Assembly (NCBI GenBank): GCA_028293765.1
Contig: JAQGOG010000098.1
Location: 1-50,181 of the forward strand
Reading direction: 5' to 3'
Length of the DNA stretch: 50,181 bases
From: Gammaproteobacteria bacterium
Lineage (GTDB): Bacteria > Pseudomonadota > Gammaproteobacteria > Steroidobacterales > Steroidobacteraceae
The notes under the pieces are model-generated. The model was given only the letters and a program-made list of their open reading frames with translations. It was not told the DNA's origin and did no database searches. This document shows, piece by piece, positions 8,400-43,682 of this stretch (position 1 is the stretch's first letter; every line of letters starts with the position of its first letter). A program made the translations under genes and the position numbers.

Positions 8400-8522
8400 C
8401 TGGAGCCCGCGTCCCCTTCCGCAATATGCGGCACGACAGTATCATCTCCGGCCGCCCTGCGGAACAGATCCCGCCCGCCAAAGCGCACCCAAACAGGGCG
8501 TGGGGTGCGCTGGCAACCGCTT

Positions 8523-10679
8523 CTAGTTGGCCTGACTCTTCGTCTGCGTCGCGCGGTGAATGACGTAGGTACGAATCGTCTCGATCTCTTCCTTACTCAT
8601 CTGGCTGCCGAACGACACCATGCCGTTAGCCGAGCGGACGCCGTCGTGGACGATGCTCTGCCAGGTATTCGGAGCGCTCATTGCCGCTGAATAACGCAAG
8701 TCAGGCAGAACTCCACCGCTCACAGCACTATCGCCGTGACAAGTACTGCAAAACGTGTGGTAGTGCGACTTGCCCGCGGCGACAACTTTGGCGCTCGCCT
8801 CATCCGGAGGCGGCGCCAGCTTCAGGTCCGAGGGCGGCGGCGGTGCCGGCATCGTGTCCGTGCCATTCAACTTGAAGGCCAGCACCCGGGGAATGTTGCC
8901 CTGGTTCGCCTGAGCATCGCGCGCGAGCTGACCGGCGGCGAGGCCGAAAGCACCACCCCAACCCACCTCTACAACGACGTACTGCTCGCCGTTGGCTTCG
9001 TAGGTAATGGGTGGGGCGAGGATGCCGGTATGCGTCTGAGCCGACCACAGACGCTTGCCGTCGTCTGCCTGGAAAGCCGCGAACTCGCCCATGCTGGTGC
9101 CCTGGAAAATCAGGTTGCCCGCGGTCGACACCACACCACCATTCCACGACGTGTCATAGGGCACCGACCAGACCTGCTTCTGTGCGACCGGATCCCAGGC
9201 GGACAGATGCCCTTTCAACGTCGTTTGGATCTGGGCAATGACCTTCGGGTCTTCGGGCAAGCTGCCGGCGTTGAAGTCCACGCCGGTGTTCCAACCCAGG
9301 GTCTTCGCCTTGAAGTTCTTCTCACCGACGAACACGAACCCCCCATCGATGACCGGGAGATACACGAGATGCGTGAGCGGGTCATACGACATCGCCTGCC
9401 AGGCATGCGCGCCGGCCGGGCCCGGCATGGCGCTCCAGGGTTTGCCCGTCTCGCCGTAACGCGACCGCGGATTCTCGATCGGACGCCCGGTCTGCGGATC
9501 GAGGCCGGTCGCCCAGTTGACGGCCGTGATGGGCTGCGCCGAGATGAATTCGCCCGTCGCACGGTCGAGGACGTAGAAAAAGCCGTTCTTCGGCGCCTGC
9601 ATGATGACCTGACGCAGTTTGCCGTCGATCGTCAGGTCGGCCAGGATCATCTGTTGGACCGCGGAGTAATCCCAACTCTCGCCGGGCGTGTTCTGGAAAT
9701 GCCAGACGTACTCGCCCGTATCCGGGCGCACCGCGATGATCGATGCGGTGAACAGGTTGTCACCCCCGCCGGGGCTGCGGACCGCGTGATTCCAGGGTTC
9801 GCCGTTATCGGTGCCGAAATACAGGAGGTCGAGCTTGGGATCGTAGGCCATCCCGTCCCAGGTGGTTCCACCGCCGCCTAACTTCCAGAATTCACCCGTC
9901 CAGGTCGAGCGCGCCTTGCTCTCGAGAACGTCGTCGGACGCGGCGCCGTCCTTTTTGCCCGGCTCGCCAGGTACCGTGTAGAAGCGCCAGACCTTCTTGC
10001 CGCTCTCGGCGTCGTAAGCCGTGACATACCCGCGAGCTTTATATTCGCCGCCCGCATTGCCGATGATGACTTTGCCTCTGACGATGCGCGGCGCGCCGGT
10101 GATCGAGTAGTTATCGGCGTCATCGACGGTCGACACGGACCAGGCCTGTTTGCCGCTCGAGGCATCGATCGCGATGAGCCGGCCGTCGAATGCACCGACG
10201 TACACCTTGCCGTTCCACACCGCGACTCCGCGGTTGGGGACGTCACAACAGCCTTTTATTCCCGCTGCGCCGGGAACCTCCGGGTCGAAAACCCAAAGCT
10301 GCTTGCCAGTAGCCGCATCGAGCGCGAATACCTTGCTCCAGGCGGACGTCACATACATGACCCCGTCTACGACGATCGGCGTCGATTCCTGAACGCGATG
10401 AGCCGCAGCCAGATCGTAGTGCCAGGCGAGCTGCAGCTGGCCGACGTTCTGCGCATTGATCTGCTTCAACGGGCTGAAGCGCTGTTCGTCGTAGGTACGC
10501 CCGTAAGTCATCCACGTGCCGGGTTCGCTGTCCGCCGCAGTGAGGCGGGCCGCATCCACAGCGGTTTTGGCCGCAGCGGATGCTTTCGGCTCTGACGCCG
10601 CAGGTGCCGGGCTCTGTTTCGAGCCGCAGGCGGCCAGCAGCGCTACGAGGCTCAGCGCCCCGAAGCGTGATACGTACAT
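8523..10679 (-). CDS. PQQ-dependent alcohol dehydrogenase with C-terminal cytochrome c domain (quinohaemoprotein), lipoprotein
   Basis: A 718-residue quinohaemoprotein of the methanol/ethanol dehydrogenase family that oxidises alcohols in the periplasm. The start is a lipoprotein signal with lipobox LAAC (Cys18). The eight-bladed propeller includes the vicinal disulfide Cys144-Cys145 (GCCDVPNRG) that stacks on PQQ, and the catalytic Asp337 in ESWDYSA. The residue two after that Asp is Ser, not the extra Asp of lanthanide enzymes, so calcium is expected. A haem-binding CSTCH is at 644-648, with Met687 as a likely axial ligand. It lies 76 bp downstream of an aldehyde dehydrogenase gene, so together they would convert an alcohol to the acid. 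Substrate is not predictable. Confidence 0.92.
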   Translation of the reverse strand: MYVSRFGALSLVALLAACGSKQSPAPAASEPKASAAAKTAVDAARLTAADSEPGTWMTYGRTYDEQRFSPLKQINAQNVGQLQLAWHYDLAAAHRVQESTPIVVDGVMYVTSAWSKVFALDAATGKQLWVFDPEVPGAAGIKGCCDVPNRGVAVWNGKVYVGAFDGRLIAIDASSGKQAWSVSTVDDADNYSITGAPRIVRGKVIIGNAGGEYKARGYVTAYDAESGKKVWRFYTVPGEPGKKDGAASDDVLESKARSTWTGEFWKLGGGGTTWDGMAYDPKLDLLYFGTDNGEPWNHAVRSPGGGDNLFTASIIAVRPDTGEYVWHFQNTPGESWDYSAVQQMILADLTIDGKLRQVIMQAPKNGFFYVLDRATGEFISAQPITAVNWATGLDPQTGRPIENPRSRYGETGKPWSAMPGPAGAHAWQAMSYDPLTHLVYLPVIDGGFVFVGEKNFKAKTLGWNTGVDFNAGSLPEDPKVIAQIQTTLKGHLSAWDPVAQKQVWSVPYDTSWNGGVVSTAGNLIFQGTSMGEFAAFQADDGKRLWSAQTHTGILAPPITYEANGEQYVVVEVGWGGAFGLAAGQLARDAQANQGNIPRVLAFKLNGTDTMPAPPPPSDLKLAPPPDEASAKVVAAGKSHYHTFCSTCHGDSAVSGGVLPDLRYSAAMSAPNTWQSIVHDGVRSANGMVSFGSQMSKEEIETIRTYVIHRATQTKSQAN

Positions 10680-10755
10680 AGACCCCCTCGTTTTTTTGTC
10701 GCCTTGGACCGGTCAGCTCATTAGTGTAATTGCTGGCGGATACCTGCCGCCGTGA

Positions 10756-12279
10756 TCAATACGCCATGCAAACGGACTTCAGCTCCGTGTACAGATCCAG
10801 AACGGCCCGGCCGTGCTCGCGTCCGAAGCCGGACTGCTTGAAGCCGCCGAACGGCATGTTCGGGTCCACGAAGTTGTGGCAATTGACCCAAACCGTACCA
10901 GCGCGGATCTTCGGTACGAGGCGCTGGACGGCGCGCAGGTCATTCGACCAGATGCTGGCGCCAAGACCGAACGGCGTGTCGTTGGCGAGGGCAGCGATGT
11001 CGTCGCTATCGTCGAAGCGCTGTGCAACGAGCACAGGCCCGAAGATCTCTTCGCGAACCACCTTCATCTCGGGGCGTACGTTGGCGAGCACCGTGGGCTT
11101 CACATAGAAGCCCGGCGAGGCGGGCGCCTCGCCGCCGGTCATGACCTGTGCGCCCTCTTTGCGTCCCGACTCGATATAACCGAGCACGCGCTCCTGTTGC
11201 TCGCGGGAAACCAGCGGACCCATCACGGTTTTCGGATCGAGGCCCGGCCCGAGTCGGATCGATGCGGCCGCCGCGCTCACACCGTCGACGACCTGGTCGA
11301 AGACCTTCTTGTGCGCGAACAGACGGGTTCCGGCGCAGCACACCTGACCCGCATTGAAAAAGATGGCATTGGCGGCGCCGCCAATCACCGTGTTGATATC
11401 CGCATCGGGCAGCACGATCACCGGAGACTTCCCACCGAGCTCGAGGGAAACTCGCTTCAACGTATCCGTGGCCGACTTGTTGATGAGCTTGCCGACTGAA
11501 GTCGACCCTGTGAAAGCGACCTTATCCACGCCCGGATGAGCGACGAGCGCGGCTCCGGTTGTCTCCCCGAGCCCGGTGAGAACGTTGACGACGCCCGGGG
11601 GGAAACCCGCCTCAGCGACGAGCTCGGCAAGTCGCAGCGCCGTGAGGGGCGTCTGCTCCGCAGGCTTCAGAATGCATACGCAGCCGGTCGCGAGGGCGGG
11701 GCCGAGCTTCCAAGCGGCCATCGCCAGCGGGAAATTCCAGGGCACGATCTGCGCAACGACACCCACCGGCTCGCGCGCCGTGTAGGTCTGAAACTTCATG
11801 CCCGGGGGCCCGTGGATCGAAGTCTCGAACGTCGAGCCTTCGAGCTTGGTGGCCCAGCCGGCCATGTAACGGAAATAGTCCCGCGTACCGGCGACGTCCA
11901 CGACGGTGGCCATGAACTTGGTCTTGCCGTTGTTGATGCTTTCGAGCTCCGCGAGCTCGTCCGTGTGCTTCTCGATCAGATCGGACAGCTTCCACAGGAG
12001 CGCCTGGCGATCGGAGGGCAGCATGTCGCGCCAAGGACCCTTGTCGAACGCCGCGCGGGCCGCTGCCACCGCGCGGTCTACATCGGCGGCACTCGCGTCC
12101 ACGACGGACGCTATCTCACGTCCGGTTGCCGGATCGACTACGGAGATCCGCTCTTTCGATTTCGCTTCGACCCACTCACCGCCGATAAACAGCCGCGGCG
12201 CGCGCTTCAGGAACTGGGCCACCGCTGCCGACGGCTCGGGTTGAGTGGCGATCTGTGACTGGGCAATCAAGGCATTCAC
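10756..12279 (-). CDS. NAD(P)-dependent aldehyde dehydrogenase
   Basis: A 507-residue class 1/2 aldehyde dehydrogenase with Asn182 (PWNFPLA), Glu280 (LELGGKSP) and Cys314 (AGQVCCAGTR; note the adjacent second Cys, common in this group). FTGSTSVGK and the C-terminal PFGGFKQSGFGRE are intact. It is the first gene of the minus-strand run that continues with the PQQ alcohol dehydrogenase, an arrangement suggesting stepwise oxidation of alcohol to acid. It is related to but clearly distinct from the enzyme at 1665. Its start is divergent from the AraC regulator at 12733, with 453 bp between them that hold a 16-bp palindrome. Confidence 0.93.
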   Translation of the reverse strand: MNALIAQSQIATQPEPSAAVAQFLKRAPRLFIGGEWVEAKSKERISVVDPATGREIASVVDASAADVDRAVAAARAAFDKGPWRDMLPSDRQALLWKLSDLIEKHTDELAELESINNGKTKFMATVVDVAGTRDYFRYMAGWATKLEGSTFETSIHGPPGMKFQTYTAREPVGVVAQIVPWNFPLAMAAWKLGPALATGCVCILKPAEQTPLTALRLAELVAEAGFPPGVVNVLTGLGETTGAALVAHPGVDKVAFTGSTSVGKLINKSATDTLKRVSLELGGKSPVIVLPDADINTVIGGAANAIFFNAGQVCCAGTRLFAHKKVFDQVVDGVSAAAASIRLGPGLDPKTVMGPLVSREQQERVLGYIESGRKEGAQVMTGGEAPASPGFYVKPTVLANVRPEMKVVREEIFGPVLVAQRFDDSDDIAALANDTPFGLGASIWSNDLRAVQRLVPKIRAGTVWVNCHNFVDPNMPFGGFKQSGFGREHGRAVLDLYTELKSVCMAY

Positions 12280-12732
12280 TCGGGGACCTCCGGAAACTGA
12301 GGGAACGCACTCTCCCTCTATCGGTGCACGGGCGCGGGTGCGGACTTTTCGATCACCAATGTAGCGCTCCAGCGTGCTCGCCCGGCTCTACCAATGGGGA
12401 GATTAGATTCGACCCTGAGTGAAGGGGAGGACGGCGGCAATCGCGGGGGACGCTCCAGGGGCTTCGCATTCAATGACTTGCACTAGGAGAATTGTGGCTG
12501 GTAGTCCAGACGCCATGGCGTCTCGCGCTGCCGCGTCGGCCCGACAGCTCGAAGTGGCGTGCCGCTGCCCGCCGTTCGGCATGGCACGGGGCCTGTGGAA
12601 CGTCGGTTGGCCTCAGAGGCAGCACGAGCGCTATCTGGGCGAAATGGCCGGCCACCGCGTCGCCCCTTGCGCGGCGCCAGGTATTCCGATTGACTAGAAG
12701 CGACCATGCCCAGCGATTCGAGGGGTGAGGCA
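12280..12732. other. Intergenic region between divergent aldehyde dehydrogenase and AraC genes
   Basis: 453 bp with no convincing gene: the short frames here have no family resemblance and no good ribosome-binding sites. It must carry the promoters of both flanking genes. It contains a perfect 16-bp palindrome at 12508-12523 (listed separately). It also contains CTCTACCAA at 12386-12394, a 9-mer also present at 6291-6299 upstream of the dioxygenase gene. Confidence 0.6.
12508..12523. promoter_or_regulatory. Perfect 16-bp palindrome, candidate operator
   Basis: AGACGCCATGGCGTCT is its own reverse complement, with no spacer. It lies 210-225 bp upstream of the AraC gene start (12733) and about 230 bp upstream of the divergent aldehyde dehydrogenase start (12279). 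A dimeric regulator site is possible. AraC proteins more often bind direct repeats, so another regulator, or no function, is equally possible. Confidence 0.3.
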
Positions 12733-13695
12733 ATGCCTCAGCTGGAAACATTTTCGACTGCTGAATTACCGCCGCATCGGCGGCTCGAGTTTTGGAACGA
12801 TCTCGCCGGAAGTGCCTTCACTCCGCTCGTGACCGATCCCGTGGACCGGCGCGCGTTCGTAGGGCGACTCACTCGTACGCAGGTCGGCGAGATCCGCCTC
12901 GCGGAAGCCCGGTCAGAGCCCGCCATTGTTCGTCATTCCCGGCAGCACGTGGCTCGCACACGCGAAGCGCTGTTCATGCTTTGCCTGCAGCTCGACGGAG
13001 TCAGCGTCAACCGGCAGCAGGGCCGGGAAGCGGTGCTTCGCTTTGGTGACTTCCACCTCCTCGACAGCTCCCGTCCCTACGAGGTCTCCTTCCAGCAACC
13101 TAACCGGATGCTGGTGCTCAGCATTCCGCACCCCGAGCTGGCGCGGCGGATGCCGAATCCTGAGAGCGTCGTCGGAATAGCGGTGTCCGGCAGAAGCGGT
13201 GTCGCCGGCCTCCTCTCCTCTCTATTGTGTAACTTCTGGCAGCAACGCCGCTCGGGCGACGAAACGTTCCTGTCCCCCCGTTTCAGCGAGGCGATTCTTG
13301 ATCTGATCGCAAGCGCGTATGCCTCAATCACCTCGATAGCGCCCGAAGGCTCCTCGATCGCCATCGCGCGACGCCAACAGATCCGCAGCTACATCGAAAC
13401 CCACCTTCACGACCCCGCTTTAACCCCCGGCAGCGTCGCCGCGGCAGTCCATCTCTCGCCGCGCCGACTCCACCAACTTTTCGAAGCCGACGGCGAAACA
13501 GTAGGCGCCTACATCCTCCGCCGCCGCCTGGAAGAATGCGCTCGAGCTATGGCCGACGCTTCCCAACGCAGCCGCACCGTCACGGAAATCGCCTTCCTTC
13601 ACGGCTTCAACAACGCCTCGCACTTCGGACGCGTCTTCCGCGAGCGCTACAAATCGACCCCCAGCGACTACCGCCGCCGCACCACTGCCGCGTAG
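12733..13695 (+). CDS. AraC-family transcriptional regulator (paralogue of the one at 7440)
   Basis: A 320-residue regulator with the same architecture as the 7440 protein: an N-terminal ligand domain (LETFSTAELPPHRRLEFWND, LTRTQVGEIRLAEARSEP) and a C-terminal double helix-turn-helix (TEIAFLHGFNNASHFGRVF, STPSDYRRR). I place the start at ATG 12733 because a strong GAGGGGTGAGG ribosome-binding sequence precedes it and this start aligns with the paralogue; an ATG at 12706 is possible. Its stop is 121 bp upstream of the dikinase/carboxylase operon on the same strand, making it the natural candidate regulator for that operon. It may also act on the divergent aldehyde dehydrogenase. Confidence 0.92.
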   Translation: MPQLETFSTAELPPHRRLEFWNDLAGSAFTPLVTDPVDRRAFVGRLTRTQVGEIRLAEARSEPAIVRHSRQHVARTREALFMLCLQLDGVSVNRQQGREAVLRFGDFHLLDSSRPYEVSFQQPNRMLVLSIPHPELARRMPNPESVVGIAVSGRSGVAGLLSSLLCNFWQQRRSGDETFLSPRFSEAILDLIASAYASITSIAPEGSSIAIARRQQIRSYIETHLHDPALTPGSVAAAVHLSPRRLHQLFEADGETVGAYILRRRLEECARAMADASQRSRTVTEIAFLHGFNNASHFGRVFRERYKSTPSDYRRRTTAA

Positions 13696-13816
13696 ACTGC
13701 CGGGACAGGGCCTGCTGCTTTCCCCCACAGAGCAGCCTTTCAGCGCGGACAGAGCAGTGTCCGCGCGGTCGGTATCCGTACGCTGCGTGCACCCATCCGG
13801 TGCAGGCAACCTTACG

Positions 13817-15652
13817 ATGAACGGTCAGAAGCGCCAGAATCCTTTCCCACTGCCTTCCGAGATCGAAAGCGCTCCCGGGGCTGAAGGTTGGGAGGCGATG
13901 TATCCCTACTACACGCGTTTCCGGCCGGAGGACGACCAGAGGTTCTGGTTCTACAACTCCATGCACTTCCCGGAGCCGATGCCGGCTTTCGACGTCATCA
14001 CTGCGGAAGTGCCGTACTCCGGCATGGGCGCGTATACGACGCGGGTGTTTGCGTTTCCGACCGCGCTTGGCATCGATCACCGCATTCTGAACGGTCGCGT
14101 CTACATCACCGCGAACACGGTCACGGACCCGAAGCAGGTTGAAAGCCGGCTCGCGATCTTTCAGGAGCGTGCCGGTTATTACTATGAAAACTGGAACAGG
14201 CTCTATGGCCAGTGGCGCGAGCGGCTCAACCAGCTGATCGTCGAGGTCGACGCGATCAAGGTACCGCAGCTGCCCGAGTTCGACGACCCGGAGGTCGTCT
14301 CCGAGGCCCGTGGCATAGCGCAAAATCACTATGTGCGCGCGTCCTTCCATCGTTGCATCGAAAGCTACTCGAAGATGTGGCATCACCACTTCGAGTTCCT
14401 GATGCTCGGCTACGGCGCCTATCTGGTGTTCTTCCAGTTCTGCAAGCAAGCGTTCCCCGAGATCGCGGATCAGACCGTCGCTCGCATGGTGGCGGGCATC
14501 GATGTGCTGATGTTCCGCCCGGACGATGAGATCAAGAAGCTCGCGCGTCTTGCGGTCGAGTTGGGTGTCGACGCCCCATTCGCCAGCAACGGCGTGGACA
14601 ATGGCGATCCGGCAGCAATGCTTGCTGCGGTAGGCAGCCTCGGCGAGGCCGGGAAGCGCTGGATCGCGGCGCTCGATAAGGCGCGTGATCCCTGGTTCAA
14701 CACTTCGACGGGCGATGGGTTCTATCATCACCACCGAAGCTGGAACGACGATCTCACCGTCCCGTTCTCGGCGCTCCCCCGTTACATCGCGCAGATCAAG
14801 GCCGGGAAGAACATCGATCGTCCCACTGAGGCTCTGAAGAAGGAGCGCGCACGGATCATCGAGGAATACCGGAGCCTGCTTGCCACCGAGCAGGACCGCG
14901 GCGCCTTCGATCAAATGCTCGGGTTGTGTCATGTCGTATTTCCCTACGTGGAGGACCACAAGTTCTACTGCGAGCACTGGTTCACCACACGGTTCTATAG
15001 CAAGGTGCGCGAGTTCGGATCACTGCTCGTGCGCAAAGGCGTGCTGCAGGACGTCGAGGACGTCTTTCACCTGCACCACACTGAAGTGGATCTCGCGCTC
15101 ATCGACGTGCTGCTCGCGTGGGCGGCAGGCTCGGAGCCCGCCGGCGCCAGTCACTGGCAGCCGATCGTCGAAAAGCGCAAAACGCTCGTCGAAAAGCTCA
15201 AAAGTTGGGACGCACCGCCAGCGCTGGGACCGATGCCGGAGAGGCTCGAAGACCCCGCGGTGCAAATGCTTTGGGGCATCACGTCCGAGACGCTGGATTC
15301 CTGGTCGCGCGTACCCGACGCGAAGGATGCGAATGAGATCCGCGGATTCGCTGCTTCAGCGGGTGTCGTAGAAGGGATAGCCCGCGTACTCACGAGCGTG
15401 AACGACATCGGACAAATGATGGAGGGTGAGATCCTCGTTTGCCCCGTGACGGCCCCGAGCTGGGCGCCGCTGTTCAGCAAGATCAAGGCGGCGGTGTCCG
15501 ACATCGGCGGCACGATGTCGCATGCAGCGATCGTAGCGCGCGAGTACGGAATGCCCGCCGTGGTGGGCACAGGACAGGGTACGAAGCGGATCCGGTCCGG
15601 ACAACGATTGCGCGTTGACGGGGACCGCGGCATCGTCACCATCCTGGAATAA
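13817..15652 (+). CDS. PEP-utilising (swivelling His) subunit, phenylphosphate synthase protein 1-like
   Basis: A 611-residue protein ending in a PEP-synthase-type mobile phosphohistidine domain (residues about 505-611). The motif GGTMSHAAIVAREYGMPAVV places the phospho-carrier His at residue 569. The first 490 residues (MYPYYTRFRPEDDQRFWFYN, GIDHRILNGRVYIT, WHHHFEFLMLGYGAYLVFFQ) do not resemble the pyruvate-binding barrel of PEP synthase. They match what I recall of the 70-kDa protein 1 of phenylphosphate synthase, which carries the phosphoryl acceptor site. The ATP-binding half is the next gene. I prefer ATG 13817 over GTG 13757; neither has a strong ribosome-binding site. Expected role: transfer the beta-phosphate of ATP from His569 to a hydroxyl or enol substrate. 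Substrate unknown. Confidence 0.82.
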   Translation: MNGQKRQNPFPLPSEIESAPGAEGWEAMYPYYTRFRPEDDQRFWFYNSMHFPEPMPAFDVITAEVPYSGMGAYTTRVFAFPTALGIDHRILNGRVYITANTVTDPKQVESRLAIFQERAGYYYENWNRLYGQWRERLNQLIVEVDAIKVPQLPEFDDPEVVSEARGIAQNHYVRASFHRCIESYSKMWHHHFEFLMLGYGAYLVFFQFCKQAFPEIADQTVARMVAGIDVLMFRPDDEIKKLARLAVELGVDAPFASNGVDNGDPAAMLAAVGSLGEAGKRWIAALDKARDPWFNTSTGDGFYHHHRSWNDDLTVPFSALPRYIAQIKAGKNIDRPTEALKKERARIIEEYRSLLATEQDRGAFDQMLGLCHVVFPYVEDHKFYCEHWFTTRFYSKVREFGSLLVRKGVLQDVEDVFHLHHTEVDLALIDVLLAWAAGSEPAGASHWQPIVEKRKTLVEKLKSWDAPPALGPMPERLEDPAVQMLWGITSETLDSWSRVPDAKDANEIRGFAASAGVVEGIARVLTSVNDIGQMMEGEILVCPVTAPSWAPLFSKIKAAVSDIGGTMSHAAIVAREYGMPAVVGTGQGTKRIRSGQRLRVDGDRGIVTILE

Positions 15653-15677
15653 TCGCAACGCCTTGAGTGAGCGAGCT

Positions 15678-16763
15678 GTGCCGGCAGATTCAAACGACTC
15701 CGATACCACCTACGTGCGCCACTTCGGGGAGCTCTCCTTGAAGGATCGCCCGACTGTGGGCGGCAAAGGAGCCAGCCTCGGGGAACTGACCCAGGCGGGT
15801 ATCAACGTTCCCCCAGGGTTCGTCGTGACAACCGCGGCGTTCGAGCGATTCATTGCGGCGCTTGATGCCGATGAGTCGATTCGGAAAATCATCGCGGCAC
15901 TCGATCCCAGCGACTTGCCCGCGATCTCGGTCGCCACCGCGACTGTGCGTGAACGGATTGAGACTGTGCCACTTCCTGACGATCTGCGCGAAATGGTCTC
16001 CACCGCCTACCGCGGGCTGGCTGGTGATGAGCGACGCGCTCCCGTTGCCGTCCGGTCGAGCGCTACAAGCGAAGACAGCGCGGCTGCCAGCTTCGCCGGG
16101 TTGCAGGACACTTATCTATGGGTTCGCGGTGAAGAGGCCGTGCTGCACTCGGTCCGGTCGTGCTGGGCCAGCCTTTACAGCACGGAGTCTGTGAGCTATC
16201 GCCTGCGGCTCAAGCTTCCGGAGCAGAACGTTGCAATGGGGGTAGTTGTCCAGCGCATGGTGGAATCCCTGTGCTCTGGAGTGATGTTTACGCGCAGCCC
16301 TGTTACCGGAGACCGCTCCGTCATTGCGATCGAGGGAAGTTGGGGGTTGGGGTCGTGCATCGTCAGCGGCGAGGTCACCCCGGATAAGTTCGTCGTCAGC
16401 AAGGTGACGGGTGATATCTCTAAACGAACGTTGTCGGAGAAATCGGTCCAGCATGTACCGCAGGCGGAGTCGGGCGGCGTAAAAGTCGCGACCGTGCCGG
16501 CGGAAAAACAAATGGCGCCCTGCCTCGCCGATGAAGAGATCATCGCGCTGGCCGACATTGGCAAGCGCGTCGAGAAACACTACGGCTCACCGCAGGACAT
16601 CGAGTGGGCTGTCGGACAAGGACGGACCTCTGGCAAGGACATCTACATTTTACAGAGCCGACCGGAAACGGTGTGGGCCAGCCGCGAGGCGCAGCCCGTC
16701 GCGGCACCCAGGGCGAGAGCGTTCGACCACGTCCTGGCGCTCCTGAGCGGGCGGGATCGCTGA
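15678..16763 (+). CDS. PEP/pyruvate-binding (PPDK_N) ATP-grasp subunit, phenylphosphate synthase protein 2-like
   Basis: About 361 residues (roughly 39 kDa) covering only the N-terminal nucleotide-binding part of PEP synthase. VGGKGASLGEL is at residue 27 onward, followed by VPPGFVVTTAAFERF, AVRSSATSEDS, the SGVMFTRSP segment, SWGLGSCIVSGEV and the terminal DIEWAVGQG / IYILQSRPETVW. There is no His domain and no pyruvate barrel; the His domain is supplied by the upstream gene. This division matches the 70 + 40 kDa organisation of phenylphosphate synthase. It should bind ATP and phosphorylate His569 of its partner, releasing AMP and phosphate overall. The start is uncertain: GTG 15678 is chosen, while TTG 15663 or TTG 15615 (overlapping the upstream gene) are alternatives. 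Confidence 0.85.
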   Translation: MPADSNDSDTTYVRHFGELSLKDRPTVGGKGASLGELTQAGINVPPGFVVTTAAFERFIAALDADESIRKIIAALDPSDLPAISVATATVRERIETVPLPDDLREMVSTAYRGLAGDERRAPVAVRSSATSEDSAAASFAGLQDTYLWVRGEEAVLHSVRSCWASLYSTESVSYRLRLKLPEQNVAMGVVVQRMVESLCSGVMFTRSPVTGDRSVIAIEGSWGLGSCIVSGEVTPDKFVVSKVTGDISKRTLSEKSVQHVPQAESGGVKVATVPAEKQMAPCLADEEIIALADIGKRVEKHYGSPQDIEWAVGQGRTSGKDIYILQSRPETVWASREAQPVAAPRARAFDHVLALLSGRDR

Positions 16764-16766
16764 ACC

Positions 16767-17279
16767 GTGAACCTCACCCATGACGACGTGCAGGAGATCC
16801 TGCGCCTTCTCGACACCTCGCCATTCGACGAACTGCACCTCGAGACCGATCGTTTCAAACTGACTTTGCGCAGAAGCGGCGTCGGTGGGTGGACGCAAGA
16901 GACGCGAACCTCGTCGACCCCGCGCCTGACACGGCCCGACGGGGGTGCCGCTGCGATGGTGGCAACCTCAACTGAAAATAGCGGCGCCAGCTCGATAAAG
17001 GATGCGGGCAGCGCACAGCCCTCCGCAGAGGGAATCAGCGCAGTTCGCAGTCCGATCATTGGCACTTTCTATCGTGCACCCAAGCCAGGCGCCCCGCCCT
17101 TCGTCGAAGTCGGCTCGGAGGTAACACCGCAGACCGTCATCGGGATCATCGAGACCATGAAGCTGATGAATTCGGTATACGCGGGCGCAGGCGGAAAGAT
17201 CGTTGCGATCTGCATCGGGGACGGCGAGTTCGTCGAGCAAGATCAGGTGTTGATGCGGCTCCAGCAGGGACGGGTATGA
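16767..17279 (+). CDS. Biotin carboxyl carrier protein (AccB-like)
   Basis: A 170-residue carrier. The N-terminus (LTHDDVQEILRLLDTSPFDEL, then HLETDRFKLTLRR) resembles the AccB N-terminal domain. A Pro/Ala/Ser linker follows (about 45-85), then the biotinyl domain beginning VRSPIIGTFYRAPKPGAPPF. The biotinylation motif is ETMKLMNS with Lys132, and the thumb-like TFYRAP segment of acetyl-CoA carboxylase carriers is present. GTG start, three bases after the upstream stop, so translationally coupled. It shuttles carboxybiotin between the biotin carboxylase and the carboxyltransferase encoded next. A second, housekeeping AccB would be expected elsewhere in the genome; this copy looks dedicated to the operon. 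Confidence 0.9.
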   Translation: MNLTHDDVQEILRLLDTSPFDELHLETDRFKLTLRRSGVGGWTQETRTSSTPRLTRPDGGAAAMVATSTENSGASSIKDAGSAQPSAEGISAVRSPIIGTFYRAPKPGAPPFVEVGSEVTPQTVIGIIETMKLMNSVYAGAGGKIVAICIGDGEFVEQDQVLMRLQQGRV

Positions 17280-17352
17280 CGGTGGAGGGAGTAAAGTCCG
17301 GGATGATCAACCCGCGCCGCCTTGCGGCCAGGTATCTGCCGATGATGACACA

Positions 17353-18705
17353 ATGATTTTTCGGCGCATTTTGATCGCCAACCGCGGTGAGATCGCGGTC
17401 AGGATCATCCGCACCTGCCAGCGGCTTGGCATCGAGAGCGTGCTCGCGGCATCTGCAGCGGATCTCGAGTCGACTGCCGCGAAGCTCGCAGACCGCACCA
17501 TTTGCATCGGCCCGCCTCGTTCCTCGGAGAGCTATCTCAAGATCGAGGCCGTCGTGAACGCGGCGCTCGCCACGCGCGCCGCTGCGATCCATCCGGGATA
17601 CGGCTTTTTGTCCGAAAATGCGGCGCTGGCTCGGAAGTGTCGCGCCGCCAACCTCGTTTTCATCGGCCCGGCCGAAGAGCAACTCGAGGCGATCGGCGAC
17701 AAGCTCAAAGCCCGACGCCACGCAATCGACGCAGGCTTGCCGGTCGTACCCGGCGGGCCGATCGCATCGCTGGAAGAGGCACTGTCCCTCGCCGACCAAA
17801 TCGGCTGGCCCGTCCTCATCAAGGCCGTGGGCGGCGGCGGCGGCCGCGGCATGAAGCAGGTTCACCAGAGCTCCCAGATGGCCGAGGCCCTGGAACTGGC
17901 AAGGGCCGAAGCCAACACGGCCTTCGCAGATGCCCGCGTCTACCTGGAACGATTCGTTGCATCCGGACGCCATGTCGAAGTGCAGCTGCTAGGAGACGGT
18001 GACCACATCGTTCACCTCGGAACGCGGGATTGCTCGATCCAGCGGCGTTACCAGAAGCTTGTTGAGGAAGCGCCTGCTCCGGGACTGTCTGACGGATTGC
18101 GTACAGCGATACATGATGCCGCGGTGGCATTTGGGACGCATCTGCGGTATCGCAGCGCCGGCACCGTAGAGTTTCTCGTGGACCGGGTGCGCGAAGAGTT
18201 CTATTTTCTGGAAATGAACGCGCGAATTCAGGTTGAGCATCCAGTCACCGAGGAAGTGACCGGTCTCGATCTCGTGGCGGAGCAAATTGCCATAGCCCAA
18301 GGTCAGCCTTTGCGATTGCGTCAGGCCGATATCGCGATCGAAGGTCACGCCATCGAATGCCGCATCAATGCCGAGGACAGCACGAAGGACTTCCGCCCAA
18401 GCCCAGGCACGATCACCTCCGCAGTATTCCCCGCCGGAACGGACATCCGCGTAGACACCCACATCGAGTCAGGTTCCCTTGTACCGCCCTTCTACGACTC
18501 CTTGTTAGCTAAGATCATCGTGAGCGGCACCGACCGTCGAGAAGCGCTGCGAAACATGGAAGCCGCTCTGGCGAACTGCCACATCGAAGGCGTGCATACG
18601 AATTTGGACCTGCACACCGCGCTGCTGGCGGATCCAACCTTCGCACGCGGTGGAGTAGACACATCCTTCCTGGCGCACTTTCTGGAAGAACGCGCCAATG
18701 GTTGA
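17353..18705 (+). CDS. Biotin carboxylase subunit (AccC-like)
   Basis: A 450-residue ATP-grasp enzyme that carboxylates biotin with bicarbonate and ATP. It begins FRRILIANRGEIAVRIIRTC. It has the ATP-binding loop Lys157 in KAVGGGGGRGMK, and the active-site set Glu287, Asn289 and Arg291 in EMNARIQVEHPVTEE. The C-terminal domain includes GHAIECRINAED and FRPSPGTI. Length matches E. coli AccC (449). It lies 73 bp after the carrier gene and 44 bp before the carboxyltransferase. In this context it loads the operon's own carrier rather than serving fatty acid synthesis. The family call is secure, the physiological role inferred. Confidence 0.92.
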   Translation: MIFRRILIANRGEIAVRIIRTCQRLGIESVLAASAADLESTAAKLADRTICIGPPRSSESYLKIEAVVNAALATRAAAIHPGYGFLSENAALARKCRAANLVFIGPAEEQLEAIGDKLKARRHAIDAGLPVVPGGPIASLEEALSLADQIGWPVLIKAVGGGGGRGMKQVHQSSQMAEALELARAEANTAFADARVYLERFVASGRHVEVQLLGDGDHIVHLGTRDCSIQRRYQKLVEEAPAPGLSDGLRTAIHDAAVAFGTHLRYRSAGTVEFLVDRVREEFYFLEMNARIQVEHPVTEEVTGLDLVAEQIAIAQGQPLRLRQADIAIEGHAIECRINAEDSTKDFRPSPGTITSAVFPAGTDIRVDTHIESGSLVPPFYDSLLAKIIVSGTDRREALRNMEAALANCHIEGVHTNLDLHTALLADPTFARGGVDTSFLAHFLEERANG

Positions 18706-18749
18706 AGTCGAAGGCGTCGACTTGGAATCTTTCCTGAACGGGAACCGTC

Positions 18750-20246
18750 ATGGCTGACATGAAACTCGTCGACGTCTCTATTCGCGACGGCAACCAGAGC
18801 CTTTGGGGCGCAACCGGCCTGAACACCGCGCAGATCCTGCAGATCGCGCCCATCCTCGACCGCGTGGGATTTCACGCCCTCGATTTCACGTCCAGCACTC
18901 ACATGGGAGTGGCTGTCCGCACGAGCAAGGAAGATCCCTGGGAGCGGATCCGCCTCATGCGCGAGGCGGCGCCCAACACGCCGCTGCAGCTCATCACCAC
19001 CGGATTTCGGTTCATTTCATGGGAGACGGCGGACCCGGATTTCATGCGGCTCGTGTATCGGCGGCTCGTTGCGAACGGGGTCTCGCGCTTCGCGGTCATC
19101 GACCCCATGCACGACATGTCCGCACTGCTCGAATCCGCCCGCCTCATCCACGAGGAAGGCGGCGACGAAGTCGTCGCAGGCCTGACTTACACGATAAGCG
19201 CCATTCACGACGACGCGTTCTACGCCACCCTGGCTGCGCAGATCGCGCGATCTCCAAACGTCGATCGTCTATATATAAAGGACCCGGCCGGCCTGCTGAC
19301 CCCGGAACGCGCGCGCACCCTGATTCCCGCCGTGCGTGCACGCATTGGAGAGCTGCCGCTAGAACTCCACTCTCATTGCACGATCGGTCTCGGTCCCTTC
19401 ACGTCCTTGGCTGCGGCAGACATGACCGTCGGCACGCTGCACGTGGCAATCGGCCCCCTCGCGAACGGCACTTCGCTGCCGTCGGCAACGCGCCTCGTCG
19501 CGAACCTGCGCGAAGCCGGACACACGATCGACATCGATGATCGCGCGCTCGCTTTGGCATCGGATTACTTCACGCGGCTCGCTAACGCGGAAGGGCTACC
19601 ATCCGGCACGCCACAGGAGTACGACGCGACGTTCCTGCGCCACCAAGTCCCGGGCGGCGTCATGACGACCATGCGGCGGCAGCTCGAAGAGCTGAAATTG
19701 AAGGACAAGTTGCCGGCAGTGATAGAAGAAGTCGAACGCGTACGCGCGGAGCTCGGCTATCCAATCATGGTCACGCCGTTCCCGCAGATCGTTTGCACGC
19801 AGGCGTTGTTCAACGTGATCGGACCGGAACGTTACGGCAACGTGCCAGACCAGGTGATTCGTTACGTCATCGGTCGATTCGGGCGTCCCACTACGCCCGT
19901 CAATGAGACTGTCATGGATCGCATTCTCGAGCGCCCACGCGCAAAGGAACTCATGGCGGAGCCGGCGACCCTCTCGCTGGCCGAACTCCGTAAGAAATTC
20001 GACGCCTCGATATCGGATGACGAGTTCCTGCTACGCGCCGTAATGCCCGCGGAACAAGTGGACGCGATGATTGCAGCCGGGCCGGCCAAGCGCCATTACA
20101 ACCCGGACACGCGCCCGCTCCTCGAGCTCATCCGCGGATTGACTCAGCGTCCGCGCACGGAGCGGATCGTAGTTGAAAAGCCCAATTTTCGCCTCGAGCT
20201 GCGTGGCGGGATGACCAAAGAGAGTGAGCGTGGACATAGCGCGTGA
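18750..20246 (+). CDS. OadA/PycB-like biotin-dependent carboxyltransferase subunit
   Basis: A 498-residue HMG-lyase-fold carboxyltransferase. The metal site is recognisable: Asp13 in VSIRDGNQS, Lys177 in YIKDPAGLLTP (the lysine that is carbamylated in pyruvate carboxylase) and His207-x-His209 in ELHSHCTIG. The ANGTSLPS segment corresponds to the AGGTSQP loop carrying the catalytic Thr. Oxaloacetate decarboxylase and pyruvate carboxylase have RDAHQS, but here it is RDGNQS, so the substrate side of the pocket is altered. There is no C-terminal biotinyl domain, which is encoded separately upstream. It should move CO2 from carboxybiotin to an enolisable acceptor. Pyruvate is possible, but the context (dikinase, phosphatase) points to another substrate. 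Confidence 0.85.
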   Translation: MADMKLVDVSIRDGNQSLWGATGLNTAQILQIAPILDRVGFHALDFTSSTHMGVAVRTSKEDPWERIRLMREAAPNTPLQLITTGFRFISWETADPDFMRLVYRRLVANGVSRFAVIDPMHDMSALLESARLIHEEGGDEVVAGLTYTISAIHDDAFYATLAAQIARSPNVDRLYIKDPAGLLTPERARTLIPAVRARIGELPLELHSHCTIGLGPFTSLAAADMTVGTLHVAIGPLANGTSLPSATRLVANLREAGHTIDIDDRALALASDYFTRLANAEGLPSGTPQEYDATFLRHQVPGGVMTTMRRQLEELKLKDKLPAVIEEVERVRAELGYPIMVTPFPQIVCTQALFNVIGPERYGNVPDQVIRYVIGRFGRPTTPVNETVMDRILERPRAKELMAEPATLSLAELRKKFDASISDDEFLLRAVMPAEQVDAMIAAGPAKRHYNPDTRPLLELIRGLTQRPRTERIVVEKPNFRLELRGGMTKESERGHSA

Positions 20247-21102
20247 GGTAACCGAACGGCTGCGCACGACGCGCGCCTTCGTGTTCGACATGGATGGCAC
20301 CCTCGTACTGGGCGACAGGAACAACAAGGGGCTGGTGCCTCTGCCGGGAGCTGTGGCATTCACGCAGCATCTGCATGAGCGCGGCGTACCGTTCGTTATC
20401 CTCACGAACGGAACGACCCGAACGCCGGCAGAGTATGCCGACATGCTGCGTAAGATGGGATTCCCGGTGCCCGATGAGAGGATGCTCACGCCAAGCGCCG
20501 TCGCCGCCGAGTACCTCGCGCGCCGCAAGTTCAAGCGCGTGATGGTGTTGGGCGGTGAAGGCGTCTGGCGCCCGCTAGAAGCCCTCGGCATCGAAGTCGT
20601 CAGCCCCTCGAACAAACACGTCGCCAACGACGCTGCCTCTCAAGGCCCCATCGACGCTATCTTCGTCGGCTGGTATCGCGAATTCACCATGGACGACCTC
20701 GAAGCCGCGTGTAACGCTGTATGGGCGGGCGCGAAACTGTTCACGAGTTCCATGGCCCCTTTCTTCGCCACCGCGAATGGCAGAGCCCTCGGCACCTCAC
20801 GCGCGATTTGCGCCGTGATCACCAGCATCACGGGACAGCGGCCAACAGTCCTCGGGAAGCCCTCGCTGGAAGCACTGCGGTGTTCCGCTCGGCGGCTCAG
20901 TGTGGACCCCACCGAGATTGCCGTGGTCGGTGACGATCCTGCGCTGGAAGTCCCCATGGCCCACCGTGGCGGCTCCTTAGCAATCGCCGTTCACACGGGT
21001 ATCGGCGATGAGTCCGCATTTAGCGGCCTACCTCTCAACGAGCAGCCGCACCTCATCGTCCAGAATGTTGAAGAGTTGCTGACGCACTACAGGCGCACCT
21101 AG
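20224..21102 (+). CDS. HAD-superfamily (IIA, NagD/PGP-like) phosphatase
   Basis: A 292-residue HAD hydrolase. Motif I is FDMDGTL (Asp22 nucleophile, Asp24), motif II LTNGT, the motif III Lys is in LGKPSLEAL, and motif IV is VVGDDPALEVPMA. The inserted cap (about 90-200) is of the C2A type, as in NagD, PNPase and phosphoglycolate phosphatases. It starts by GTG within the end of the carboxyltransferase gene (23-bp overlap; GTG 20230 is an alternative), so coupling is tight. The position suggests it hydrolyses a phosphorylated intermediate made by the dikinase, or repairs a dead-end phosphoester. In phenylphosphate carboxylase one subunit is also a HAD protein, which is a suggestive parallel. 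Confidence 0.87.
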   Translation: MSVDIAREVTERLRTTRAFVFDMDGTLVLGDRNNKGLVPLPGAVAFTQHLHERGVPFVILTNGTTRTPAEYADMLRKMGFPVPDERMLTPSAVAAEYLARRKFKRVMVLGGEGVWRPLEALGIEVVSPSNKHVANDAASQGPIDAIFVGWYREFTMDDLEAACNAVWAGAKLFTSSMAPFFATANGRALGTSRAICAVITSITGQRPTVLGKPSLEALRCSARRLSVDPTEIAVVGDDPALEVPMAHRGGSLAIAVHTGIGDESAFSGLPLNEQPHLIVQNVEELLTHYRRT

Positions 21103-40403: not shown

Positions 40404-42401
40404 TCAGGCAGTGAGTGAGTAGTCCGTCTGATTTTTAGTGTAGGCAATGAAATAGTCCAACGCATGAGGGTTGGCCACCGCGTCGCGGTTGGCCGCCTTC
40501 TCCGGCGCCAGCCCCATGAGGATCTTCCTGACCGGCACTTCCATCTTCTTGCCGGTGAGGGTGAACGGAATGGCGTCCACCTGATACATCTTGTCCGGCA
40601 CATGCCGCGGTGAGTACTCCCTGCGCAGCGTCGCCCGGATCTTCTCCGTGATCGGCTCGTCGAGCTTGAAACCCTCCTTGAGCTTCACGAACAGCGGCAT
40701 GAAGAACTTCCCATGCGGAAGATCGAGGTTGACGATCAGCGAGTCATCGATCTCCGGCAGCGTCGCCAGCGACCGGTAGATCTCGGCGGTTCCGATGCGA
40801 ATTCCGTGGCGGTTGAGCGTAGCGTCCGAGCGGCCGAGCACGAAGCAGCCGCCCCGTTCGTTGAGCTTGAAGAAGTCGCCGTGCCGCCAGATGCCCGGGT
40901 AGTCCCCGAAATAAGCATCGAGGTAGCGCTTGTTGTCCACGTCGTTCCAGAAACACACCGGCATGGACGGCATCGGCTTCGTGACGACGAGCTCCCCGAC
41001 CTGGCCGACGATCTTCGCGCCACGCTCGTTGAATGCGTAGATGGCGCAGCCGAGCGCTCTCGACTGGATCTCTCCCGCGTACACCGGCATGGTCGGCGCG
41101 CCCATGACGAACCCCGTGCAGATGTCGGTGCCGCCGCTTCCCGAAGCCACCCACAGGTCCTTCTTCACATTGTTGTAGATCCACTCCATGCACTCGGGAG
41201 TGACGGGCGAGCCGGCGAGCGCAACCGTCTCCAGCGATGCGAGTCCGGCGCCATTCTTCGGGACGATAGCGCCCTTTTCGAGCCCTGAGATGTAAGTCGG
41301 GCTGGTCCCGAACACCTTGGTCCCCGTGTCGTCGACCATCTTCCACAGCACATCGGGCGTCGGCCAGGCCGGATTGCCGTCATAGAGCACCGGCACGACA
41401 TCCGACAACAGCGAGCTGACGAGGAAATTCCACATCATCCAGCCGGTGGTGGTGAAGAAGAACAACCGGTCGCCGTCGTTCACGTCGTAGTTGAGCTGCA
41501 TGTGCTTCAACTGCTCGAGGATGATGCCGCCGTGCCCGTGGCAGATCGGCTTCGGCAGACCCGTCGTCCCCGACGAGAACAGGATCCACAATGGATGATC
41601 GAACGGAACCTGCTCGAAGTGGAACTCGCTCGCCGGCACCTTGGGGTTGTTCAGCAGATCGTCCCAGAGCACGGTGTGCTCGTGGAACGTCTGCTTGTCG
41701 TCGCGGTTCAGGTAAGGCAGGTAGATGACGCGCTCGAGCGAGCCGAGCTGGTCGATGATCTTGTGGACCTCTTCCTTGCGATTGAACGGCTTACCACCGT
41801 ACTGGTAGCCGTCGACGTAGAACATCACTTTCGGCGCCAGCTGCGTGAACCGATCCAACACGCCGCGCGTGCCGAAGTCGGGGCCACAGCTCGTCCAGAT
41901 CGCGCCGATGCTCGTCGTGGCGAGCATGGCGATGACGGTTTCCGGGATGTTCGGCATGTAGGCGACCACGCGGTCGCCGGGCTTTACATTCAGTCTGCGC
42001 AACTGTGTCGCGAGGATCCGAACCTTGGCGCCGAGCTCTTCCCACGACATGCTGGCGAGAGTGGTTCGCTCGTTGAGGTACAACAGAGCCGTTGCGTTGG
42101 GACGCTCGTGCCGCAGGGCGTGCTGTGCGTAATTGAGCCGCGCGCCGGGGAACCACCTGGCTCCGGGCATGCGCGCATCGGCGAGCACGCGCTCATGAGG
42201 AGCGGACGACTGCACCTTGAAGTAGTCCCAGATCGCCTGCCAGAAGCCTTCGAGATCATCGACGGACCACTGCCACAGATCCTGGTAAGTCGCGAAGCTC
42301 TTGCCGCGCTCCGCACCCAGCCAGCGCGTGAACGCCGTGAGCTTGGCCTTCGCAACCCGCTCCTGGCTCGGCGTCCACAGCAGATCACCCTCGTTCAACA
42401 T
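40404..42401 (-). CDS. Acetoacetyl-CoA synthetase-like 3-oxoacid--CoA ligase
   Basis: A 665-residue adenylate-forming ligase with the acetoacetyl-CoA synthetase layout. The N-terminus is LLWTPSQERVAKAKLTAFTR, with FPGARLNYAQHALRHER, P-loop FSSGTTGLPK (SGTTGLPK at 277-284), TTTGWMMWNFLVSSLL and DATLNRHGIRIGTAEIYR, and the C-terminal catalytic-lysine region FTLTGKKMEVPVRKIL. It activates acetoacetate or a related 3-oxo acid with ATP and CoA. It lies between a PcaF-like thiolase and an aldehyde dehydrogenase. There is no PcaIJ-type CoA transferase nearby, so it may supply the CoA thioester that the thiolase cleaves. Its natural acid is not proven by sequence. Confidence 0.9.
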   Translation of the reverse strand: MLNEGDLLWTPSQERVAKAKLTAFTRWLGAERGKSFATYQDLWQWSVDDLEGFWQAIWDYFKVQSSAPHERVLADARMPGARWFPGARLNYAQHALRHERPNATALLYLNERTTLASMSWEELGAKVRILATQLRRLNVKPGDRVVAYMPNIPETVIAMLATTSIGAIWTSCGPDFGTRGVLDRFTQLAPKVMFYVDGYQYGGKPFNRKEEVHKIIDQLGSLERVIYLPYLNRDDKQTFHEHTVLWDDLLNNPKVPASEFHFEQVPFDHPLWILFSSGTTGLPKPICHGHGGIILEQLKHMQLNYDVNDGDRLFFFTTTGWMMWNFLVSSLLSDVVPVLYDGNPAWPTPDVLWKMVDDTGTKVFGTSPTYISGLEKGAIVPKNGAGLASLETVALAGSPVTPECMEWIYNNVKKDLWVASGSGGTDICTGFVMGAPTMPVYAGEIQSRALGCAIYAFNERGAKIVGQVGELVVTKPMPSMPVCFWNDVDNKRYLDAYFGDYPGIWRHGDFFKLNERGGCFVLGRSDATLNRHGIRIGTAEIYRSLATLPEIDDSLIVNLDLPHGKFFMPLFVKLKEGFKLDEPITEKIRATLRREYSPRHVPDKMYQVDAIPFTLTGKKMEVPVRKILMGLAPEKAANRDAVANPHALDYFIAYTKNQTDYSLTA

Positions 42402-42476: not shown

Positions 42477-43682
42477 TCAAACCCGCTCGATGATCAGTGC
42501 GATACCTTGGCCGACGCCGATGCACATCGCGCACAGCGCGTAGCGGCCTTTGGCGGCCATGAGTTGATAAGTGGCCGTCGTTGCGAGCCGTGCGCCGGAC
42601 ATGCCCAGCGGATGGCCGAGCGCGATCGCGCCCCCGTTGGCGTTGACGTGCTCCGCATCGTCGGGGAGGCCGAGTTCACGCAACACGGCGAGCGCTTGGG
42701 ACGCGAATGCTTCATTCAACTCGACCACATCCAACTGTTTGATTTCTAACTTCGCCAGCGCCAGCGCCTTGCGCGTCGCCGGTACCGGGCCCATGCCCAT
42801 TATTCTCGGCTCGACGCCCGCCGTTGCACCGGCAACGATGCGTGCGCGGGGAGTGAGCCCAAAACGGCGCACCGCCGCTTCGGACGCTATCACCAGCGCA
42901 CAGGCGCCATCGTTCACCCCCGATGCGTTTCCGGCGGTCACCGTGCCGTTCGCACGGAAGGGTGTAGGGAGTTTCGCGAGTTGCTCGAGAGTTGTTTCAG
43001 CGCGCGGGTGCTCGTCGCGCGATATGACGAGCGGCTTACCCTTGCGCTGGGGAATCTCGACCGGAATGAGCTCGGAGTCGAAGAAGCCGCGCGCGTACGC
43101 CGCAGCCGTGCGCTGCTGACTGCGCAGCGCGAACTTGTCTTGATCCGCGCGGGAGACGTTGTAGTCCGCCGCGACGTTCTCGCCGGTCTCCGGCATCGAA
43201 TCAATGCCGTACTTCTGCTTCATGGCCGGATTGACGAAGCGCCACCCGATCGTGGTGTCAAAGACCTCGGCATTGCGGCTGTATGGGGAATCCGCCTTCG
43301 GCATGACGAATGGCGCACGCGACATGGACTCCACGCCGCCCGCCACGATGAGCCCGGCCTCTCCGGCCTTGATGGCGCGCGCAGCCATCATTACCGCATC
43401 GAGACCCGAGCCGCACAGGCGGTTGATGGTTGCGCCGGGTACCGAAACGGGTAGTCCCGCCAGCAAGGCGGCCATACGCGCCACGTTACGGTTGTCCTCT
43501 CCGGCCTGGTTTGCGCAGCCGAGCAGCACTTCGTCAATAGCGGCGAGGTCGAGGGAAGGGTTACGCGCGACCAGCGCCGCAATGGGCAACGCGGCGAGGT
43601 CATCGGCTCGCACCGGGGCGAGCGCGCCACCGTAGCGCCCGATCGGCGTTCTTACGGCGTCGCAAATGAATGCGTGGGTCAT
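42477..43682 (-). CDS. Thiolase, 3-oxoadipyl-CoA thiolase (PcaF/PaaJ)-like
   Basis: A 401-residue thiolase with all catalytic residues: Cys90 ([11 protein letters not shown]), His357 ([12 protein letters not shown]) and Cys387 ([10 protein letters not shown]). [20 protein letters not shown] is the sequence I associate with 3-oxoadipyl-CoA thiolases, and [20 protein letters not shown] supports it. It would split a 3-oxoacyl-CoA, classically to succinyl-CoA and acetyl-CoA. It is the first gene of the operon with the CoA ligase (75-bp gap) and aldehyde dehydrogenase. It is divergent from a PcaR-like regulator, as in beta-ketoadipate pathway clusters. The other pca genes are not in the window, so I leave the symbol blank. 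Confidence 0.9.

Follow-up and report, generated by a model that had tools for sequence, protein, structure and literature searches.

The DNA analysed here, referred to as the window, is a stretch of 50,181 nucleotides (positions 1-50181 of contig C9) from a soil bacterium of the Steroidobacteraceae (Gammaproteobacteria), whose genome comprises 6.6 Mb in 211 contigs (G000). At 13817-21102 it has six collinear plus-strand open reading frames (ORFs), all open over these coordinates according to the ORF list and Pfam, which code for a two-subunit dikinase, a biotin-dependent carboxylase and a phosphatase:

13817..15652, plus strand: HpeH/AcvA-like dikinase subunit with a substrate-binding part and a swivel domain (PF00391, PEP-utilizers swivel)
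15615..16763 (longest ORF), plus strand: HpeI/AcvB-like ATP-grasp subunit (PF01326, PPDK_N)
16767..17279, plus strand: biotin carboxyl carrier protein (BCCP; PF00364, Biotin_lipoyl), with the biotinyl Lys132 in ETMKL
17353..18705, plus strand: biotin carboxylase subunit (PF00289/PF02786/PF02785, the N, D2 and C domains)
18750..20246, plus strand: carboxyltransferase of OadA/PycB fold, aryl-ketone type (PF00682, HMGL-like, and PF02436, PYC_OADA)
20224..21102, plus strand: HpeD/AcvF-like HAD-IIA phosphatase (PF13344/TIGR01460; motif I DMDGT)

Coordinates, spacing and Pfam domains agree with the first-pass annotation, which was made from the sequence alone and described six consecutive plus-strand genes of these types with gaps of 3-73 bp and one overlap. 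The frame of the first gene is open further 5', to a GTG at 13757, with the ATG at 13817 as a plausible start. The ATP-grasp gene probably starts at TTG 15663 or GTG 15678, 10 or 25 bp after the end of the first gene at 15652; its longest version, read from TTG 15615, would overlap the first gene by 38 bp. The following gaps are 3, 73 and 44 bp, and the last two genes overlap by 23 bp. The BCCP scores 110 bits with TIGR00531, slightly under the cut-off of 115.2, and scans for promoters and terminators gave fewer matches than in shuffled sequence. Compared with the nearest relative (L012), the six genes have amino-acid identities of 72-95% and dN/dS ratios of 0.03-0.14 (for the first gene over the 254 codons present on that contig); they are under purifying selection, and the operon is therefore not a product of chance. 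Several of the closer matches among named protein relatives are from metagenome-assembled genomes of Steroidobacteraceae.

The operon is thus real and well conserved, and its enzyme composition is already characterised elsewhere, because both the Hpe pathway (Dexter et al., PMC9618137) and the mechanism of its kinase (PMC12167813) have been described. HpeHI phosphorylates 4-hydroxyacetophenone and acetovanillone, the biotin-dependent HpeCBA carboxylates the phosphorylated ketones (free ketones not detectably) at a cost of about one ATP to ADP per turnover, and the HAD enzyme HpeD takes the phosphate off the carboxylated product (PMC9618137). It is the phenolic hydroxyl that carries the phosphate in this characterised system, and the new carbon joins the acetyl side chain (PMC9618137), so that the phosphate is not a leaving group, unlike in phenylphosphate carboxylase. 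The first-pass annotation, which knew of no characterised enzyme with this composition, is therefore wrong or overstated on this point (PMC9618137, PMC12167813, PMC13101465). Its interpretation is partly supported overall and its inferred chemistry is essentially right: priming by a phenol-type dikinase, biotin-dependent carboxylation of the phospho-ketone and subsequent action of the HAD enzyme all match the Hpe biochemistry (PMC9618137). Of its two suggestions for the activated intermediate, phosphorylation of the phenolic hydroxyl is the one that agrees with the characterised homologue; an enol phosphate finds no mention in the passages of the Hpe literature consulted.

The relationship to Hpe is seen in both kinase subunits. 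The swivel subunit has the motif SDIGGTMSH with His569 and fits the T/SxxGGxxxH motif that surrounds His581 in HpeH; the described kinase mechanism involves the ATP-grasp subunit, the swivel His581 and a phosphohistidine (PMC12167813). The top PDB match of the window ATP-grasp subunit is 9GOJ, which is HpeI (E 4.5e-81). As a yardstick for Rhodococcus rhodochrous GD02 we used a plasmid locus of Rhodococcus sp. JS3073 (L007), chosen for an ATP-grasp subunit nearly identical to 9GOJ (E 1.3e-234). Its genes are arranged in the order swivel kinase, ATP-grasp, BCCP, biotin carboxylase, carboxyltransferase, HAD and ligase, the first six as in the window, and genes 1 to 6 share 49, 44, 56 (80 residues only), 52, 46 and 36% identity with their window counterparts. 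The features that define Hpe/Acv systems, namely a two-component dikinase, an adjoining three-component biotin carboxylase and an HAD phosphatase in the operon, are all present. Table 1 of PMC9618137 labels HpeB (49.3 kDa) as carboxyltransferase and HpeA (57.4 kDa) as biotin carboxylase; judged by size and by the gene order of L007, these labels look swapped.

The carboxyltransferase retains its metal-binding and catalytic residues: in the alignment, R12, D13, Q16, K177, H207 and H209 fall on positions that are conserved in the pyruvate-type enzymes. Pyruvate-type enzymes have a segment LLR(G/S)xN, the Arg of which we take to be the pyruvate-binding residue; it reads LLRGQN in 5KS8, 2NX9 and 1S3H and ITTGFRF in the window. 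The Arg is changed to Thr in 8/8 rows of Hpe-type enzymes in the alignment and retained in all four of L002, L008, L009 and L010. The extended segment ITTGxRFxSW is common to the window and L007 (there ITTGMRFMSW), while a separate relative in the same genome (27% identical to the window carboxyltransferase, open frame of 1177 codons) reads LLRSAN.

A contig scan matched 371 relatives of the carboxyltransferase. The best 80 were kept, and the counts cover the 64 loci in which 4.6 kb or more precede the carboxyltransferase, leaving out the other 16. Representatives of the block come from Pseudomonadota, Actinomycetota and Acidobacteriota. The BCCP is present in 64/64 loci, the biotin carboxylase in 63/64, and a kinase gene stands beside the carboxylase in 63/64 (in two of these as ATP-grasp subunit only). 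The homologues are thus linked in other genomes; scattered and unlinked homologues, which the first-pass annotation had named as speaking against it, are not what is seen. An adjacent HAD gene is found in 44 of the 59 loci whose two flanks are long enough.

The kinase slot is occupied by the two-subunit dikinase in 32 of the 64 loci, by a MarK-like UPF0261 gene in 29, by the ATP-grasp subunit only in two (L032, L063) and by neither in one (L029); dikinase and UPF0261 never occur together (0/64). The UPF0261 gene lies in front of the same carboxylase genes (for example L003 5883-7130 and L004 5972-7204), and loci carrying it include plasmids of two bisphenol degraders, Pseudomonas putida YC-AE1 and Sphingomonas bisphenolicum AO1. 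The gene of S. bisphenolicum matches PDB entry 9MPY ('UPF0261 domain-containing protein') with an E-value of 9e-173, and both are probably MarK, a kinase described in PMC13101465. A survey of MarK cited there counted 836 cases, and in no more than 52 of them did the kinase and carboxylase genes form a cluster; this number is not comparable with our 63/64, because we counted the loci nearest to this carboxyltransferase and two types of kinase. At E 1e-60, no match to the S. bisphenolicum UPF0261 gene was found in the window genome, and a MarK-type kinase for the window operon was rejected for this reason.

When kinase types are mapped onto a tree of 93 carboxyltransferases and one distant outgroup (89 different rows, several near-copies), the kinase label needs five changes, with incomplete support: the tree was built with a quick method without bootstrap, 20 of 86 inner branches are poorly supported and some are long. 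The well-supported branches alone force at least four changes between the MarK label and all other rows. That unrelated kinases were swapped repeatedly while the carboxylase was retained independently supports a priming role of phosphorylation. None of the papers listed by our literature searches is on repeated kinase replacement; the MarK survey with its 836 cases was outside their scope.

Two variants of these loci are of note. Four loci (L017, L018, L019 and L021; three Geobacteraceae/Desulfuromonadaceae and one Telmatospirillum) have a second UPF0261 gene after the carboxyltransferase, about 30% identical to the first type. L009 (1020-13175, plasmid pRB98 of Rhodococcus oxybenzonivorans) is a distant cousin cluster with a small swivel-domain protein, a 525-amino-acid protein without Pfam match, an AMP-ligase, a protein combining PPDK_N and swivel domains, a biotin carboxylase set, a thiolase and, in the place of the HAD enzyme, a tyrosine-phosphatase-family protein. 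Its carboxyltransferase (38% identity) has Glu where the active-site Lys is expected; from its gene content, the cluster appears to follow a similar logic with other parts.

Among 296 genomes of the order, 19 have a carboxyltransferase at E 1e-100 or better: 18 with 54-100% identity and G269 with 42%, the latter set apart after its result was seen. An HpeH-like subunit is present in 15/18 and a MarK-like protein in 2/18, and in the remaining genome, G164, a fragment of the H subunit is seen where a contig ends; either type is found in only 1 of the 278 others. Ligase and hydrolase both track the carboxylase across the 296 genomes: an AcsA-type ligase with at least 58% identity occurs in 18/18 genomes with and 5/278 without the carboxyltransferase (four further genomes with 47-48% matches were left out of this count), and a CouO-like hydrolase in 16/18 with and 18/278 without. 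With G269 included, the numbers for HpeH-like, MarK-like, AcsA and CouO are 15, 2, 18 and 16, each of 19. Fisher values for these profile associations are only indicative, as kinship was ignored, the thresholds were picked by inspection and not all matches are complete or free of stop codons. The set of 296 genomes overlaps in part with the sample of carboxylase loci (G201, for example, corresponds to L036).

Within the window, two genes are candidates for the reactions downstream of the operon:

40404..42401, minus strand: acetoacetate--CoA-ligase-type enzyme, AcsA1/HpeE role (TIGR01217)
42477..43682, minus strand: thiolase adjoining the ligase (TIGR02430, pcaF, above cut-off)

The first is the probable coenzyme A (CoA) ligase for a product of 4-hydroxybenzoylacetate type. 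It is 54-63% identical to the ligases of 15 carboxylase loci (those of L003 and L016 are identical), 50% to that of Rhizobium leguminosarum (L006) and 43% to that of L007; its nearest paralogue in the own genome has 43%. A CouO-like gene, 62% identical to the P. putida cluster gene, is found at C82:71049-71906; as it is on another contig, its link to the operon is by profile and not by position. In a genome of the same genus (G066, locus L126), the operon is immediately preceded by a CouO-like gene of the same orientation. From a match downstream of the L007 ligase, we would place HpeF and CouO in this amidohydrolase group. By homology, a CoA ligase and a beta-ketoacyl-CoA hydrolase of the GD02 type are thus predicted to be available. 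For the thiolase, a search of the carboxylase loci at E 1e-30 gave a single relative, with 41% in L010; because of this absence and its PcaF score it ranks below the hydrolase, and a role like that of TioL is possible but less likely.

Two further candidates were rejected: the amidohydrolase at 499-1578 as HpeF, which is about 20% identical to the CouO-like group (62% for the C82 gene), and cleavage of the VceA type, for which the genome has one BKACE-family gene with only 35% identity to a cluster-linked one. The gene at 499-1578 (plus strand) codes for an Amidohydrolase_2 protein and has relatives of 63-64% identity near the operon in L028 and L036 (111 residues on the locus in L036). At 3180-4733 (minus strand) the window has a gene of the tannase/feruloyl-esterase family.

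Taken together, we regard it as very likely that steps one to three of a hydroxyphenylethanone breakdown of the Hpe/Acv type are encoded by the operon and that the AcsA-type ligase and the CouO/HpeF-like hydrolase, less likely the thiolase, complete the route. The ATP-grasp subunit would transfer the beta-phosphate from ATP to the swivel subunit, at His569, and the swivel subunit would then phosphorylate a 4-hydroxyphenyl ketone (4-hydroxyacetophenone or acetovanillone, for example) on its phenolic hydroxyl. The biotin carboxylase would charge the biotin on the BCCP, the carboxyltransferase would move the carboxyl group to the alpha carbon of the ketone to give a phosphorylated aroylacetate, and the HAD enzyme would strip the phosphate. 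Finally, the ligase at 40404-42401 would form the CoA thioester, and the hydrolase on contig C82, or less likely the thiolase, would lead to acetyl-CoA and the aromatic acid. The first three steps are biochemically known only in homologues; for this genome we infer them, like substrate, regulation and direction of flow, from sequence, linkage and phylogenetic profile.

Several observations weigh against this assignment. The identity to the yardstick is only 36-56%, so that a different aryl ketone may be the substrate. The HAD gene is not adjacent in 15/59 loci with enough flank, the ligase gene has the opposite orientation and a distance of about 19 kb from the operon, and the hydrolase gene is on a different contig. 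The ligase subfamily also occurs unlinked, for example with 54.5% identity in Phyllobacterium, where the 18 kb covered list no carboxylase genes, and of the 278 genomes without the carboxyltransferase, five have an AcsA-like ligase and 18 a CouO-like hydrolase. Some of the supporting genes are damaged or incomplete: the carboxyltransferase of G213 holds one in-frame TGA, in G257 the carboxyltransferase match is cut at residue 327 and the ligase holds one TAA, and the kinase and ligase matches of G152 are partial. G269, with its 42% carboxyltransferase relative, lacks the H, MarK, AcsA and CouO types at the thresholds used.

The question of the substrate is also raised by the genes upstream of the operon:

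12706..13695, plus strand: FeaR-like AraC-family regulator (PF14525 and HTH_18), directly upstream of the operon
10756-12279, minus strand: StyD-like aldehyde dehydrogenase (domain models), just upstream
8523-10679, minus strand: pyrroloquinoline quinone (PQQ) quinohaemoprotein alcohol dehydrogenase (domain models), just upstream

The AraC-type gene is a possible regulator of the operon; one other locus, L036, has a 54% identical AraC-type gene directly upstream of the operon. The minus-strand genes at 7440-12279 code for an AraC regulator and the two dehydrogenases, and the ketone could be formed by them through oxidation of an aryl alcohol. The same machinery might act on another hydroxyaryl ketone, longer-chained or differently substituted, that is fed in by the PQQ and StyD-like dehydrogenases. 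In favour are the moderate identity to the yardstick set, the nearness of both dehydrogenase genes, which precede the operon in opposite orientation, and the locus L015, where the PQQ enzyme has a 54% relative. Against it, the ITTGxRFxSW segment is shared with the near-HpeI locus L007, and few loci show the PQQ association (L015 54%, L042 38%, L128 32%); we consider this a minority possibility. Still less probable is a broader version, in which carboxylase and HAD enzyme are a general phosphate-tag module with the kinase swapped repeatedly between the unrelated HpeHI and MarK-like types, and the clade of the window uses a novel hydroxyaryl ketone produced via the PQQ dehydrogenase.

Two further explanations are very improbable. 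That ordinary pyruvate carboxylase or oxaloacetate decarboxylase genes lie beside a phosphoenolpyruvate-synthase-like kinase by chance would fit the closest solved relatives of the carboxyltransferase (PycB, OadA and transcarboxylase 5S), but the genome has its separate relative, a kinase gene is linked in all but one of the 64 loci, and the replaced active-site segment led us to reject an ordinary pyruvate carboxylase, the alternative that the first-pass annotation had itself raised. An anaerobic phenol route, with phenylphosphate synthase and a carboxylase for which phosphate is the leaving group, could draw on the homology of the dikinase subunits to phenylphosphate synthase (PMC9618137, PMC12167813), but the carboxylase is biotin-dependent and phenylphosphate carboxylase is, according to PMC9618137, not homologous to HpeCBA. 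A phenylphosphate carboxylase was rejected, as none of the six genes is of the UbiD type (no search for such a gene was made elsewhere in the genome).

Several known systems come close to that of the window. Hpe of R. rhodochrous GD02 (hpeHICBADEF) has the same six enzyme types with the two kinase subunits first, the same catalytic residues and the AcsA-like ligase and CouO-like hydrolase roles in common with the window system, which differs in its 36-56% identity (via the JS3073 stand-in), the position of ligase and hydrolase outside the operon and the AraC regulator upstream. Thauera phenylphosphate synthase is a two-subunit dikinase homologous to that of the window, but phenylphosphate carboxylase, a UbiD-type enzyme, is from another family and loses the phosphate on carboxylation. 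MarK-type clusters of Novosphingobium and relatives have the same carboxylase and mostly the phosphatase genes in the same order, with a single UPF0261/Tm-1-like gene, probably MarK, where the window has the two-subunit dikinase. SYK-6 uses VceA/VceB; the single BKACE-family gene of the window genome is 35% identical to the S. bisphenolicum cluster gene, which we suspect to be VceA-like. Other systems were likened by description only. The acvABCDEF genes of Sphingobium lignivorans SYK-6, homologous and syntenous to the hpe genes (PMC9618137), form a six-gene kinase-carboxylase-phosphatase operon with downstream enzymes elsewhere (PMC9618137, PMC13101465). Aromatoleum aromaticum EbN1 has XccBCA genes clustered with hpeHI homologues (PMC9618137); with HacABC/XccABC, the acetoacetate-CoA-ligase-like AcsA1 and TioL1 it employs a biotin carboxylase in 4-hydroxyacetophenone breakdown and, unlike the window system, is an anaerobic p-ethylphenol degrader.

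With this operon, a pathway for lignin monomers that was described only recently is extended to a Steroidobacteraceae-like lineage, and the gene swapping supports the view that this carboxylase depends on priming by phosphorylation as an obligatory step. Candidates for the ligase and hydrolase that would complete the route are now at hand, which is useful for engineering bacteria for oxidised lignin streams.

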